Source: Oligella ureolytica DSM 18253 (lineage in GTDB: Bacteria > Pseudomonadota > Gammaproteobacteria > Burkholderiales > Burkholderiaceae_B). From it: DNA of 64,000 nucleotides. Both the position numbers and the translations under genes were made by a program. Below the pieces are notes generated by a model. The model did not search any database and was not told the DNA's origin. It saw only the letters and a program-made list of their open reading frames with translations. Positions 7,262 to 45,606 of the stretch are shown here, piece by piece. Within the stretch, counting starts at the first letter, position 1, and each line of letters opens with the position of its first letter. The stretch covers positions 1 through 64,000 of the forward strand of contig NZ_KB892281.1 of the NCBI RefSeq assembly GCF_000373745.1, in the 5' to 3' direction.

Positions 7262-7351
7262 ATTCTGCATGTCAGGATGTTTTTTTAATGTAAACTAAAG
7301 AGCTAAGATTATTATTCAGTTTCTGACGTTTTGTTATTTAAGGATGTAATT

Positions 7352-8248
7352 ATGTCAAGCAACCCTTACCCAGTTTTTAGGGGTAGTATTCCAGCGCTAA
7401 TCACCCCGATGCTGCAAAATGGCGAAGTGGACTTTGAAGCGTTTAAAAAGCTGGTAGATTGGCATGTACAAGAAAAAAGTGACGGCTTAGTAATTATCGG
7501 CACGTCAGGCGAATCTCCGACCATCGATTTTAAAGAGCATGCTGCGTTACTCTCAACTGCTGTAGAGTTTGCTGCTGGCCGCATTCCTATTATTGCAGGC
7601 GTTGGTGGCAATTCCACCAAAGAGGCGCTGCATCTAACCCAAGAAGCAGAAAAAGCCGGCGCTCAAGCGGGTCTATCGGTCGTACCATACTACAATAAGC
7701 CGACCCAAGAAGGTCTATACCAGCATTTTAAATACATAGCTGAAAATAGTAGCTTGCCAATTATTTTATATAATGTGCCCGGACGTACGGTCGCTGATAT
7801 GTCGACTGAAACCATATTGCGTTTAGCAGAGGTTCCAGGCATTATCGGCATTAAGGATGCCACCGGTGATATCGCTCGTCTCGGTCAAGTCATGAAGCAC
7901 AAACCGGCAGATTTTCAGGTACTGAGTGGTGATGACCCGACCGCTGCTGCGTTAATTTTACTGGGTGGTCAAGGTAATATTTCCGTTACCGCCAACGTCG
8001 CTCCTCGCCTTATGCATGACTTATGTTTTGCTGCACTTGAGGGAGATCTTACCAAGGTACGCGAACTTAATGCTAAGCTCTCAACTCTTAACAAAGTTCT
8101 TTTCGCTGAAGCTAACCCTATACCGGTTAAATACGCGTTGGCTAAAATGGGTAAAACCGATTTAGGCTATCGCTTACCGCTAGTTGAGCCATCTGATGCG
8201 ACAAAGGCCTTGGTTGATGCAGCCCTAAAAGAAATTAACTTAATTTAA
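7352..8248 (+). CDS. dapA: 4-hydroxy-tetrahydrodipicolinate synthase
   Basis: Condenses pyruvate with aspartate semialdehyde, the first step of the diaminopimelate/lysine branch. The 298-residue protein starts at 7352 after AAGGA. Key residues are visible: Schiff-base Lys168 in G-I-I-G-I-K-D-A, Tyr140 in I-L-Y-N-V-P-G-R-T, Thr51-Ser52 in G-T-S-G-E-S and Arg145. The second catalytic-triad Thr is Ser here, a common variation. bamC follows after 33 bases, the pair seen widely in proteobacteria (dapA-nlpB). Confidence 0.97.
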
Positions 8249-33718: not shown

Positions 33719-35119
33719 TTATTCCTCTGTGTGTGAATTTAATGATTTTACATAGGCTGCAGCACGACCGCTCGCAAACTCAAGCTGAAGCTCCTGCCCA
33801 ACATCCAGCTGCTCAATCGTCTGAACTACGTGACCCTCAACATCATAAACGATTGAAAAACCGCGTTGTAATACCTGCTTTGGGTTCATCGTATGCAATA
33901 GTTGCTTATGCTGAATAAATGCTTGTTGATGCGCCGATAACTGCTGATGAATCGATCGATTGAGACGCTCCTGCCACTGTAACAAACGCTCGCGCTCCGC
34001 CTCTATATTAGGTTTTTTTGCCTTTAAACGCAAGGTTAGCTGCTCTAATTGAGTAATTTTGTTTGTACACAGGGCTTGCCAATTACGCAGCAAAGCGAGT
34101 TGCAGCTGTAGACGACGCTCTTCGTACTGATCGAATATACGTTGGGGTGCGACCAAACGCGACTTTAACTCATCAAAACGCATACTCTTATCAAGTAATA
34201 AACGCTCTATCCGATGATGCAATCTTGGCATGGTATCGCTGAAGCGCGCGTAACTATCGCTTCTTACCTGACTCATCACCCTATGTATTCGTTGTGTAAA
34301 CTCGCTTAACGTCGCCGGTAATGCATAAGCCGCCTTGGTGATTAACTCAGCGGCAGCAGTCGGTGTCGCTGCACGCAAATCAGCCACGTGGTCCGCGATG
34401 GTGGTGTCAGTCTCATGACCTACGCCGCTGACAATGGGGATACTACTGGCCGCAATCAGTCGTGCCAAACGCTCATCATTAAAACACCACAGATCTTCTA
34501 AACTCCCGCCACCACGTACTAATAAAATAACATCCACCTCGTGGCGTAACTCGGCTTGTGCCAACGCCCTCATCAACTCATCGGCCGCATCAGCACCCTG
34601 CACAAGACTAGGATAAACAGTGACAGAAAATTGCGGTGCACGCCGCCTCAATGTCGTCAAAACATCTTGCAAAGCGGCTGCCTGCAGAGAAGTGATAATA
34701 CCGACTCGACGGGGGTAAGGAGGTATTGCCAACTTATGCTCTGCGTCAAATAGCCCCTCTTGCTTTAATTTATCCAAAATTCGGAGGTATTGCTCAAAAA
34801 GGGTTCCCATCCCTGCCCGTCGCATTTCATCAACTTGGATTTGCAAAGAACCTCGAGCAGCAAACAGGGACAACTTACCTTTTAACTCAACCATATCACC
34901 TTGTTTAGGCTGAAAATCCAAGTTTGCTGTGCGACCTCGAAACATAACCACACTCATGGCGCTGAGATCGTCTTTGATAGAAAAGTAATAATGACCTGAT
35001 GAGGCTTTGGTGAATTGAGAAATTTCTCCTGCGACTCTAAACGTGGGTATTTGATAGTCCAAGGTATGGCTTATCAAGCGACTTAATTCTGTAACAGAAA
35101 GTATTTTTTCTTGGCTCAT
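33719..35119 (-). CDS. xseA: Exodeoxyribonuclease VII large subunit
   Basis: Catalytic subunit of the single-strand exonuclease VII. The 466-residue protein has an N-terminal OB fold ([10 protein letters not shown]), the catalytic core with [19 protein letters not shown] and S-G-V-G-H-E-T-D, a long coiled coil (about 265-410), and the C-terminal strand R-G-F-S-I-V. It heads the xseA-sodB unit and faces away from the DnaA-box spacer. Confidence 0.97.
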
Positions 35120-35356
35120 AACAAATATTTAACTAAAAATCCAGTGTTAATACAAAATTTATTTAATACTTTTCCACAGTCTACAATTAATCAGCTTTTC
35201 ATTGGGTAAAATCCATTTTTAGCGACAACTTCTTAAGATAAGCTTTAAAAAAATCACGCAACACTATGATTTATAATGATTAATTTTATTTCATTAATAT
35301 TGCACCTATTTTAAGCAACACCTCGCTTAGTACGTAGAAACAGGGAGATCAACAAG

Positions 35357-35390
35357 TTTATTCACAAAGTTATCCACAATTTTTGTGGAT
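35357..35390. repeat. 34-bp DnaA-box module, copy 1
   Basis: Matches 35793-35826 at 32 of 34 bases. It contains TTATTCACA and TTATCCACA spaced 12 bases start to start, followed by a reverse element that makes a perfect 8-bp palindrome, ATCCACAA (35372-35379) with TTGTGGAT (35383-35390). Confidence 0.85.
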
Positions 35391-35695
35391 TAATATTTAT
35401 TCACAAAAAGATTCATAAATACCTAATCAATCTAAGCACTTAATCCACTTTTTTGAAAAAACAGTTAACTATGTGCAATACATCTTACAAGATTTTTCTC
35501 TGCTAAATGAATTTACTCATGCCTAATAAGTTTTTGCCTCTCACTCACCTCCCTTAGCAAATTTTTCCGTCAAAAGCTAGGGGATAGCACAAATAAAAAA
35601 ACATAGTTGTCCACAGCCTGTCAAAACCTTGATTTCGCTGGAGAAAAACTTTTTTTATCACGCTTCTCTCAAGCTAAGCATTACAAAAACATCGT

Positions 35696-35717
35696 AACCC
35701 ATTGATATTAATGGGTT
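35696..35717. repeat. 8-bp inverted repeat inside the DnaA-box spacer
   Basis: AACCCATT (35696-35703) and AATGGGTT (35710-35717) flank GATATT. It has no T run. It could be a protein site in the origin-like region or upstream of lpxK. Confidence 0.45.
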
Positions 35718-35746
35718 TTGTATATTTCTCTTAAATTGCACCCCAT

Positions 35747-35776
35747 TTGAGCAATCCCCGTCCAGATACGTATAAT
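35747..35776 (+). promoter_or_regulatory. Sigma-70 promoter candidate for lpxK
   Basis: TATAAT (35771-35776, perfect) lies 18 bases after TTGAGC (35747-35752, 4/6). The expected start, about 35783, falls just before the two DnaA boxes at 35794-35814, so bound DnaA could hinder transcription. Confidence 0.6.
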
Positions 35777-35792
35777 GACAGACATACAGTGA

Positions 35793-35826
35793 TTTATTCA
35801 CAAAGTTATCCACAACTTTTGTGGGT
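35793..35826. repeat. 34-bp DnaA-box module, copy 2
   Basis: Second copy of the module at 35357-35390, same orientation, 436 bases away and two mismatches different. It occupies the presumed lpxK leader, 27 bases before the ATG. Confidence 0.85.
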
Positions 35827-35852
35827 AAGTCCAATCATTGATTAAAATACCC

Positions 35853-36923
35853 ATGCAAAGCGAACAACAAGACCATAAACAGCAAATTAACAAAAGCCTA
35901 AGCGCTAGGCTACAAGCACAATGGCAGCATGGTGGCTGCTTAAGCAAAAGCTTACGCCCCTTATCCGCGATTAACAGTGTCATACAGCTCAGCAGAAAAG
36001 TGCTTTATAAAACAAACATCAAAACATCCTATCGCGCACCGTGCCCTGTGATCGTCGTGGGTAATATTTATGTTGGCGGGACCGGTAAAACGCCGGTGGT
36101 CGCGGCACTTATTCAAGCACTGCAAGATAAGGGCTATCAACCAGGCATTATTTCCAGAGGCTACGGCGTCAAGATAGGTAAAGAAGCACGTGTCGCCAAA
36201 GGGGCTAATGCCGACGCCACACTCATCGGTGATGAGCCGGCATTGTTAGCTCAATACGCAGCGATTGGTGTACACCCTAAACGCTCCTTAGCGATCGAAG
36301 CACTTTTAGCACACTATCCACAAACAAATGTGATTATTGCCGACGATGGCCTACAGCACTTGGCCCTGCAACGGGACATAGAGATCATTGTCCAAGACGA
36401 ACGTGGCATTGGTAATGGACTGCTGTTGCCGGCGGGCCCCTTAAGAGAGTCTGCCGGCAAACTCGCTGACGTTGATGTGGTGATTACTAACCGCAATCAT
36501 CAACACGTCCAACGCCAGTCCGCAGAAAACACTGCGGCAAAGCCCTTGCATATCGATATGCGCCTACAGCCCACTGCTTTTGTCCATGTTAAAACTCACC
36601 AAAAACAATCGCTTGATGACTGGCTGTCGCAGCATAAAAACAAATCAATCGCCGCAGTAGCCGGTATTGGCAACCCACAACGCTTTTTTAATACCTTAAC
36701 TGACTTAGGTCTAGCGATAGAAAAACAACAGGCATTCCCCGACCATCACGCGTTTCAAGCCGACGACTTGACTGAATTTGATCAAGATCTTGTTTTAATG
36801 ACCGAAAAAGATGCCCTTAAGTGCCGACACTTTGCCGATGAACGCTTTTACTTCTTAAAAGTGGAAGCAGAGTTTTCTGATGAGGATTTCTTTAACAAGA
36901 TAGAGCGACGCTTAAAATTTTGA
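35853..36923 (+). CDS. lpxK: Tetraacyldisaccharide 4'-kinase
   Basis: Inner-membrane-associated kinase that phosphorylates the lipid A disaccharide. From ATG 35853 it has 356 residues; a TTG at 35838 would add five. Neither has a Shine-Dalgarno. The P-loop is V-G-N-I-Y-V-G-G-T-G-K-T-P, followed by S-R-G-Y-G, G-D-E-P-A-L-L-A and the catalytic-site D-D-G-L-Q-H. It opens the lpxK-trm112-kdsB-adk run. In related Burkholderiales exbB and exbD usually precede it; they are absent here. Confidence 0.95.
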   Translation: MQSEQQDHKQQINKSLSARLQAQWQHGGCLSKSLRPLSAINSVIQLSRKVLYKTNIKTSYRAPCPVIVVGNIYVGGTGKTPVVAALIQALQDKGYQPGIISRGYGVKIGKEARVAKGANADATLIGDEPALLAQYAAIGVHPKRSLAIEALLAHYPQTNVIIADDGLQHLALQRDIEIIVQDERGIGNGLLLPAGPLRESAGKLADVDVVITNRNHQHVQRQSAENTAAKPLHIDMRLQPTAFVHVKTHQKQSLDDWLSQHKNKSIAAVAGIGNPQRFFNTLTDLGLAIEKQQAFPDHHAFQADDLTEFDQDLVLMTEKDALKCRHFADERFYFLKVEAEFSDEDFFNKIERRLKF

Positions 36924-45327: not shown

Positions 45328-45606
45328 TTACTTAGTATTAACAGCATCTTTAAGTGCTTTACCTGGACGGAACTTAGGAACGACCGCTTCAGGAATTTGA
45401 ATCTCTTTACCGGTCTGTGGATTACGGCCGGTACGTGCTGCGCGAACTGAAGTATCAAATGTACCAAAACCGATCAACGTAACTGGCTCACCAGCTTGTA
45501 AAGTAACTTTTACTTGGTTGATCAGTGCGTCTAATGCGCGGCCGGCAGCAGCTTTAGAGATTTCAGCTTCGTTAGCGATTGCTTCGATTAACTCTGTCTT
45601 ATTCAT
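45328..45606 (-). CDS. hupB: DNA-binding protein HU (beta type)
   Basis: A 92-residue nucleoid protein that bends DNA as a dimer. It starts [11 protein letters not shown] and has the G-F-G-T-F core and the DNA-wrapping arm [18 protein letters not shown] is less likely because of the N-terminus and the arm sequence. Single gene. A TTGACA box lies on the minus strand at 45722-45727, but no well-spaced -10 is clear. Confidence 0.95.

Follow-up and report, generated by a model that had tools for sequence, protein, structure and literature searches.

A DnaA-box module with DARS-like and datA-like features between xseA and lpxK of Oligella ureolytica: a candidate site for control of the DnaA nucleotide state

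What does a dense cluster of DnaA boxes do between xseA and lpxK? In the stretch of 64,000 nucleotides from Oligella ureolytica DSM 18253 that was analysed here (the window), the two genes are separated by a gap of 733 bp (35120-35852) with a GC content of 31%, and the earlier note, having counted DnaA boxes there, proposed that the gap was either the chromosomal origin, oriC, or a DnaA titration site. Our analysis speaks against oriC and strongly supports a DnaA-binding control site, the architecture of which favours control of the nucleotide state of DnaA over plain titration. The features are as follows, with offsets counted from the first box of each triad (position 0):

33719-35119, minus strand: xseA, exonuclease VII large subunit, the left neighbour (NCBIfam TIGR00237, 440.7 bits, cut-off 180)
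35170-35178, plus strand: far DnaA box of module 1, TTTTCCACA, offset -188, one mismatch to TTATNCACA, aligned in all six congeners of the alignment
35259-35271, minus strand: IHF consensus of module 1, AATCATAGTGTTG, offset -99, one mismatch to WATCAANNNNTTR
35302-35316, no strand: Fis-like 15-mer of module 1, GCACCTATTTTAAGC, offset -56, fits GNNYNNWWWNNRNNC, a weak call
35358-35392, minus strand: core triad of module 1, with box III at 35358-35366 (+), box II at 35370-35378 (+) and box I at 35384-35392 (-), spacing 12 and 14
35397-35405, plus strand: additional exact DnaA box beside core 1, TTATTCACA, not conserved in five aligned congeners
35607-35615, plus strand: far DnaA box of module 2, TTGTCCACA, offset -187
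35695-35707, minus strand: IHF consensus of module 2, TATCAATGGGTTA, offset -99, perfect match
35738-35752, no strand: Fis-like counterpart in module 2, GCACCCCATTTGAGC, offset -56, end letters as in module 1, pattern failing at one A/T position
35747-35776, plus strand: promoter-like TTGAGC-18-TATAAT in module 2, just before core 2 and pointing to lpxK, 10/12 matches
35794-35828, minus strand: core triad of module 2, with box III at 35794-35802 (+), box II at 35806-35814 (+) and box I at 35820-35828 (-)
35853-36923, plus strand: lpxK, tetraacyldisaccharide 4'-kinase, the right neighbour (NCBIfam TIGR00682, 259.7 bits, cut-off 91.95, the match being made on an ORF given from 35838)

The five exact boxes (TTATNCACA) claimed for the gap are all present, on the plus strand at 35358, 35370, 35397, 35794 and 35806, and the flanking genes are indeed divergent, with xseA on the minus and lpxK on the plus strand. 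Where two near matches had been counted, we found four boxes with one mismatch, at 35170 (plus, TTTTCCACA), 35384 (minus, TAATCCACA), 35607 (plus, TTGTCCACA) and 35820 (minus, TTACCCACA). The chance expectation of 0.02 exact boxes was somewhat low, as we obtained 0.037 from the window-wide rate and 0.070 from dinucleotide shuffles of the gap, but the excess over chance still stands. A chance origin of the cluster is ruled out by the shuffles, since at least three exact boxes occurred in none of 20,000. A plasmid search returned two weak matches only, covering 5% of the query. What had been overlooked is that the boxes make up two copies of one ordered module, with IHF-type sites at fixed distances.

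These two tandem modules are each about 222 bp long, and the copies lie 436 bp apart. Both follow the same plan: a box at -188/-187 in the same direction as the first box of the triad, an IHF consensus at -99, and the triad itself at 0 (+), +12 (+) and +26 (-). The Fis-like call is weak because the pattern misses the known Fis sites of E. coli DARS2. Promoter-like matches in the gap are no more frequent than expected by chance (one found against a shuffle mean of 3.3); the TATAAT of the one match is aligned in all six congeners. A terminator scan of the gap gave three stems against 0.3 expected. Two of them are the two strands of a single inverted repeat, AACCCATTGATATTAATGGGTT at 35696-35717, which contains the IHF site of module 2 and is terminator-like on both strands, and the third is the II-I box pair of core 1. 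Both flanking genes, xseA and lpxK, start at the gap.

Is the gap, then, the origin of the chromosome? As in an origin upstream of mnmG (gidA), dense exact DnaA boxes are found here in AT-rich intergenic DNA, and this is what favours the proposal. Unlike such an origin, the gap has no skew switch, does not adjoin mnmG or parAB, and is far from the origin region mapped in relatives. GC skew, which had been put forward as a check, shows no sign change near 35.5 kb, being negative both to the left (-0.078) and to the right (-0.100) of the gap. All 8-kb blocks of the window have values below zero, and at the 2-kb scale only a few intervals at 11-15 kb are slightly positive. The flanks are xseA and lpxK, and in this draft genome (2.67 Mb, 98 contigs) mnmG-parAB is located on contig C30 and dnaA, preceded by two exact boxes, on contig C45.

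A rival box cluster is present on C30, where the roughly 2 kb immediately preceding mnmG-rsmG-parA-parB contain seven exact boxes. In this cluster (C30:16535-18594), two box pairs are repeated about 497 bp apart together with three further exact boxes, and the skew passes from -0.138 through +0.064 to +0.204. As the first 10 kb of C30 are again skew-positive, the contig does not show one clean switch. A degenerate same-direction box pair is seen at C30:18574. Exact boxes number 123 in the whole genome, against 78 for a reversed control, and the matches listed, which extend as far as contig C52, include the cluster on C30 and two small ones, at C15:16116-16186 (three boxes) and C25:1112-1134 (two).

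Relatives point the same way. In the congener G005, the skew becomes positive at 355-360 kb of its contig C10, the site of mnmG (358 kb), and all nine sampled stretches of its contig C9, which carries xseA, are skew-positive. In a one-contig relative (G120, 20 samples), the skew turns at 3.69-3.90 Mb, bracketing mnmG (3.75) and dnaA (3.79), and xseA at 1.29 Mb lies within one arm. The distance between xseA and mnmG is 0.29-0.48 of the chromosome in 16 of 17 relatives, a count that covers 17 of 26 one- or two-contig genomes. In the exception, the one-contig genome G096, mnmG and dnaA are separated by 0.16 of the genome, with xseA close to dnaA, a layout that we ascribe to rearrangement or misassembly. 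oriC is likely to be located upstream of mnmG-rsmG-parAB on C30. With no skew switch, a rival cluster at mnmG, and xseA this far from mnmG in relatives, it is extremely improbable that the gap is oriC.

The module is well conserved upstream of xseA. XseA was found by the family search in 120 of 121 genomes, and 40 of 43 genera were used, since g39 has no XseA match and g13 and g25 have weak or partial matches only. Taking one genome per genus, at most 3/24 mismatches and a distance of up to 700 bp from xseA, the (+,+,-) geometry with spacings of 12 and 14 was present in 34 of 40 genera, the threshold being failed by 6; the next of 3,872 geometries was present in 6. The counts for the IHF site, the Fis-like site, the far box and the conserved columns refer to 37 genera, leaving out g10, g15 and g34, whose representative has no triad at the threshold; in g5, a genome without the triad (G011) was replaced by one with it (G052), a choice that favours the DARS/datA-class reading. 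The IHF consensus (at most one mismatch, minus strand) is at -99 to -96 in 34 of these 37 genera and exactly at -98 in 24, against a background mean of 0.13 matches per offset and strand. The Fis-like 15-mer is at -56 in 23 genera and at -55 in 4, and its pattern fails in 10. A plus-strand box, at the loose limit of at most two mismatches, lies between -191 and -160 in 36 of 37 genera with a peak of 24 matches at -186, the all-offset mean being 0.33 matches. The columns without any variation fall mainly in the head-to-head pair, boxes II and I.

Closer to the window, both triads are kept in the five congeners whose upstream region is complete (G002, G003, G005, G006 and G007), and in these the blocks are conserved amid otherwise diverged DNA. 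G004, in which the end of a contig truncates xseA, was left out of this comparison, and G001, with an XseA 44% identical, has one triad within 700 bp. Among 80 named xseA loci, two of which (L065 and L082) have less than 100 bp upstream of xseA, the triad is found at up to four mismatches in 16, from Alcaligenaceae, Castellaniella, Pseudoduganella, some Comamonadaceae, other Burkholderiales names and one MAG named "proteobacterium" (L031). Two loci named as Burkholderiales or betaproteobacteria (L049 and L076) have no triad at this limit. Five Pseudoduganella loci (L029, L032, L033, L034 and L036) carry five or six tandem triads (at most five mismatches) within 1 kb upstream of xseA, with an IHF match (-97) at the first triad only. 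At L030, ExbB/TolQ-like and TolR-like genes, both below curated cut-offs, lie between the site and lpxK; the window has neither, and its second module adjoins lpxK instead.

The module also occurs at other places in the order Burkholderiales. The exact composite (IHF half-site, 80-90 bp, triad) was found at 48 places in 43 of 300 order genomes, the other 257 having no exact match, and the reversed control gave none. The gene context, covered for 30 of the 48 places, is xseA in 8 (window included), a priA-cluster member to the right in 10 (8 of which also have a hemE-cluster member to the left), pyrG in 3, a parE-like gene in one (L299) and what we take to be a Rep/UvrD-like helicase in 2, with the neighbours left untyped in 6. 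priA and hemE were confirmed by NCBIfam for L288 and assigned by BLAST clustering for the others, and pyrG was confirmed for L303. In the priA, pyrG, exbB-type and lpxK cases, the core is just upstream of the gene start. IHF matches fall at -99 to -95 in the 30 places, and 22 of them have a far plus-strand box with no more than one mismatch, against a mean of 1.6 and a maximum of 7 in 1,000 base shuffles; a far box in the opposite direction is present in 2. The far-box offsets cluster around -165, -174 and -187, roughly one helical turn apart. That the module adjoins unrelated genes speaks against a function tied to one neighbour.

Further triads are present in the Oligella genome itself. A pair at C2:97333-97541 (about 7334-7542 of locus L017) has the malate synthase G gene on one side and fds formate dehydrogenase on the other. 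The malate synthase G locus has 2-4 triads in this genome and in G002-G007, with no minus-strand IHF match at -99 to -96; the fds gene accompanies them in O. ureolytica, in G003 and in G006, and falls outside the examined loci of G002, G004, G005 and G007. This locus is possibly DARS1-like, and it resembles DARS1 more than the xseA-lpxK modules do. Another triad pair is at C37:6256-6455 (L015), upstream of two genes that are presumably bacterioferritin-like, and a triad identical to that of C37 is found near a contig end at C33:20453-20482 (L125), perhaps as a duplicated or collapsed repeat. The triads on C2, C33 and C37 have no IHF match at -98. The occurrence of pairs on C2 and on C37 might suggest a dispersed mobile repeat. 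This is disfavoured by the congeners, in which the xseA and malate synthase G loci have kept their places although the sequence between the triads has diverged. As to the proteins, the genome encodes DnaA, IhfA and IhfB, the last two above the profile cut-off, as well as an Hda-like protein (187.5 bits, below the cut-off of 194.8) and an HU-beta-like protein (132.4 bits, below the cut-off of 157). The gene for the latter (45328-45606, minus strand) is about 10 kb from the gap site.

DARS and datA have been worked out in E. coli. Judging from the layout, the gap is probably an IHF-dependent control site for the nucleotide state of DnaA that belongs to this class. Two same-direction boxes and one inverted box at the E. 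coli DARS spacing favour DnaA over another regulator as the bound protein, and the ordered architecture, which combines a DARS triad with a datA-like IHF placement, argues for nucleotide-state control rather than plain titration. The same parts would serve a DARS and a datA outcome, between which the sequence cannot decide. Because the head-to-head pair dominates the conservation, we give even chances to the more specific reading that the modules carry out a DARS-type reactivation of DnaA, an activity deduced from their geometry. In this case, IHF at -99 would bend the DNA and bring the far box (about -187) and the core triad together; DnaA would load on the triad, where boxes I and II would impose a head-to-head DnaA pair; and this pair, an arrangement said to drive the release of ADP at the E. 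coli DARS sites, would expel ADP from ADP-DnaA, so that ATP would be rebound and ATP-DnaA regenerated. The module would act from afar on the mnmG-proximal oriC and, by regenerating ATP-DnaA, may help to set the time at which replication starts.

Several features argue against the DARS type: the IHF positions of -99 to -95 fit datA (-97) better than DARS2 (-87/-71); the far box is a feature of datA, and DARS2 shows none at the corresponding position; the Fis-like position departs from the order implied for DARS2; the IHF site of module 1 has one mismatch and the Fis-like site of module 2 fails the pattern; and the exact composite is missing from 257 of 300 order genomes, as the triad at the threshold is from 6 of 40 genera. 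A datA-type element would use IHF to loop two same-direction boxes, on which ATP-DnaA would assemble and hydrolyse its ATP, switching DnaA off after initiation. The same-strand IHF site (-97 in E. coli datA, -99 here), the far box (-162 there, -188/-187 here), its frequency at the order-level loci (22 of 30, far above the shuffles) and its offsets in roughly helical-turn steps would all suit such an element. However, datA lacks the +12 (+) and +26 (-) boxes, which are here among the most conserved parts, its essential boxes are head-to-tail in the available part of PMC5742627, and it is near oriC in E. coli, whereas the xseA site is far from the origin, and we consider a datA-type function unlikely, if worth keeping in mind.

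A promoter responsive to DnaA and IHF, with no effect on the nucleotide state, would serve the right-hand gene (ExbB/TolQ-like, lpxK, priA or pyrG) or xseA, and has a still smaller chance of being correct. It is true that TTGAGC-18-TATAAT before core 2 is directed at lpxK with its TATAAT aligned in six congeners, that the core of L030 ends near the start of the ExbB/TolQ-like gene, and that the core is upstream of priA and pyrG elsewhere. However, the promoter scan gave fewer matches in the gap than in shuffles (1 vs 3.3), the composite module adjoins unrelated genes in other families, and there is no known promoter need for the exact DARS spacing. Plain titration, with boxes that merely soak up DnaA, is quite improbable. 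The number of high-affinity boxes (two to several in each module), the Pseudoduganella arrays of five or six triads, and the excerpted text of PMC12371093 (E. coli) count in its favour, but titration needs neither the fixed 12/14 triad nor an IHF site at a fixed distance, and both of these are strongly conserved.

For control of the DnaA nucleotide state, the reading that we prefer, the available text of PMC4245941 and of PMC8682772 states the conservation of DARS2 for gamma-proteobacteria, and that of the review PMC5742627 gives beta or gamma with no species named. No description of datA or DARS elements in Burkholderiales was found in the openly licensed PMC literature, which is weak evidence of absence since "datA" is swamped by "data" in such a search. 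The xseA-lpxK element would appear to be a new, hybrid variant of DARS/datA, with an activity predicted from its letters. If this is true, DnaA nucleotide-state control would extend to a large group, the Burkholderiales, in which a conserved, positionally exact element next to xseA, priA and other genes provides testable sites in many genomes.

The known elements were compared with the window modules using letters from E. coli MG1655, all set in one orientation. DARS1 has the core TAATACACA-TGG-TTATCCACA-GGAAT-AGTGGATAA, the DARS2 core is TTCTTCACA-ACT-CTATCCACA-GAAAA-GGTGAATAA, and the core of window module 1 is TTATTCACA-AAG-TTATCCACA-ATTTT-TGTGGATTA. Three boxes with box I inverted and spacings of 12 and 14 are present in both window cores, exactly as in DARS1 and DARS2, and a rule for the core box spacing in DARS is given in the consulted portion of PMC5742627. 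With DARS1, the core geometry is identical and the letters are similar (TAATACACATGGTTATCCACAGGAATAGTGGATAA vs TTATTCACAAAGTTATCCACAATTTTTGTGGATTA), but the DARS1 surroundings, unlike the window modules, contain no IHF consensus match at up to one mismatch. DARS1 requires no further factor in vitro according to the accessible part of PMC5742627, ADP leaves DnaA bound at boxes I and II according to that of PMC8682772, and several E. coli-related species have DARS1-like and DARS2-like sequences according to that of PMC4585315.

DARS2 shares with the window modules the three boxes with box I inverted, the start spacings of 14 and 12, an intergenic position and a location away from oriC. Its IHF matches are at -87 (minus) and -71 (plus), in agreement with the IBS1-2 spacing of 3 bp in the available text of PMC4245941. 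They are on the box-III side of the core, as in the window, and the window site is on the same strand as the -87 match; the distance, -99, differs from -87 by about one helical turn. No far plus-strand box was found in DARS2 at the place where the window has one (-188/-187), and the window element differs further in its two tandem copies and its gene neighbours. The element order also differs, as the Fis-like position is between the core and IHF in the window, whereas the order implied for E. coli DARS2 in the same excerpt of PMC4245941 is core-IHF-Fis; the Fis pattern has no match in E. coli DARS2, whose Fis sites FBS2-3 are essential, and the 23 of 37 genera that fit it at -56 do so between the core and IHF.

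The E. coli datA region has a plus-strand box at -162, a perfect IHF site (minus) at -97 and a plus-strand box at 0. These are probably datA box 2, the IBS and box 3, because 183 bp, the length of minimal datA in the consulted text of PMC5742627, is also the length of the segment that begins with the weak box at 2733 and ends with the box at 2907; the same text describes the essential boxes as same-direction. The layout of two same-direction boxes with IHF between them is common to datA and the window modules, and the IHF site is on the same strand at nearly the same distance (-97 vs -99). The far-box interval differs (-162 vs -188/-187), as do the +12 (+) and +26 (-) boxes, which the window modules have and datA lacks, and the location, datA being near oriC in E. 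coli and the xseA locus far from mnmG in relatives. Because of these geometric matches to the MG1655 sites, the module can be described as a DARS core joined to the box-IHF-box layout of datA, and it is the datA comparison that shifts our reading from a plain DARS2 to a hybrid. A more speculative idea, to which we give a low probability, is that one Burkholderiales element fuses the datA layout (DnaA off) with the DARS triad (DnaA on), so that it could work either way, depending on IHF occupancy and on the nucleotide bound to DnaA, and that datA and DARS2 could be separated descendants of an ancestral switch. The hybrid layout makes the origin of datA and DARS directly testable.
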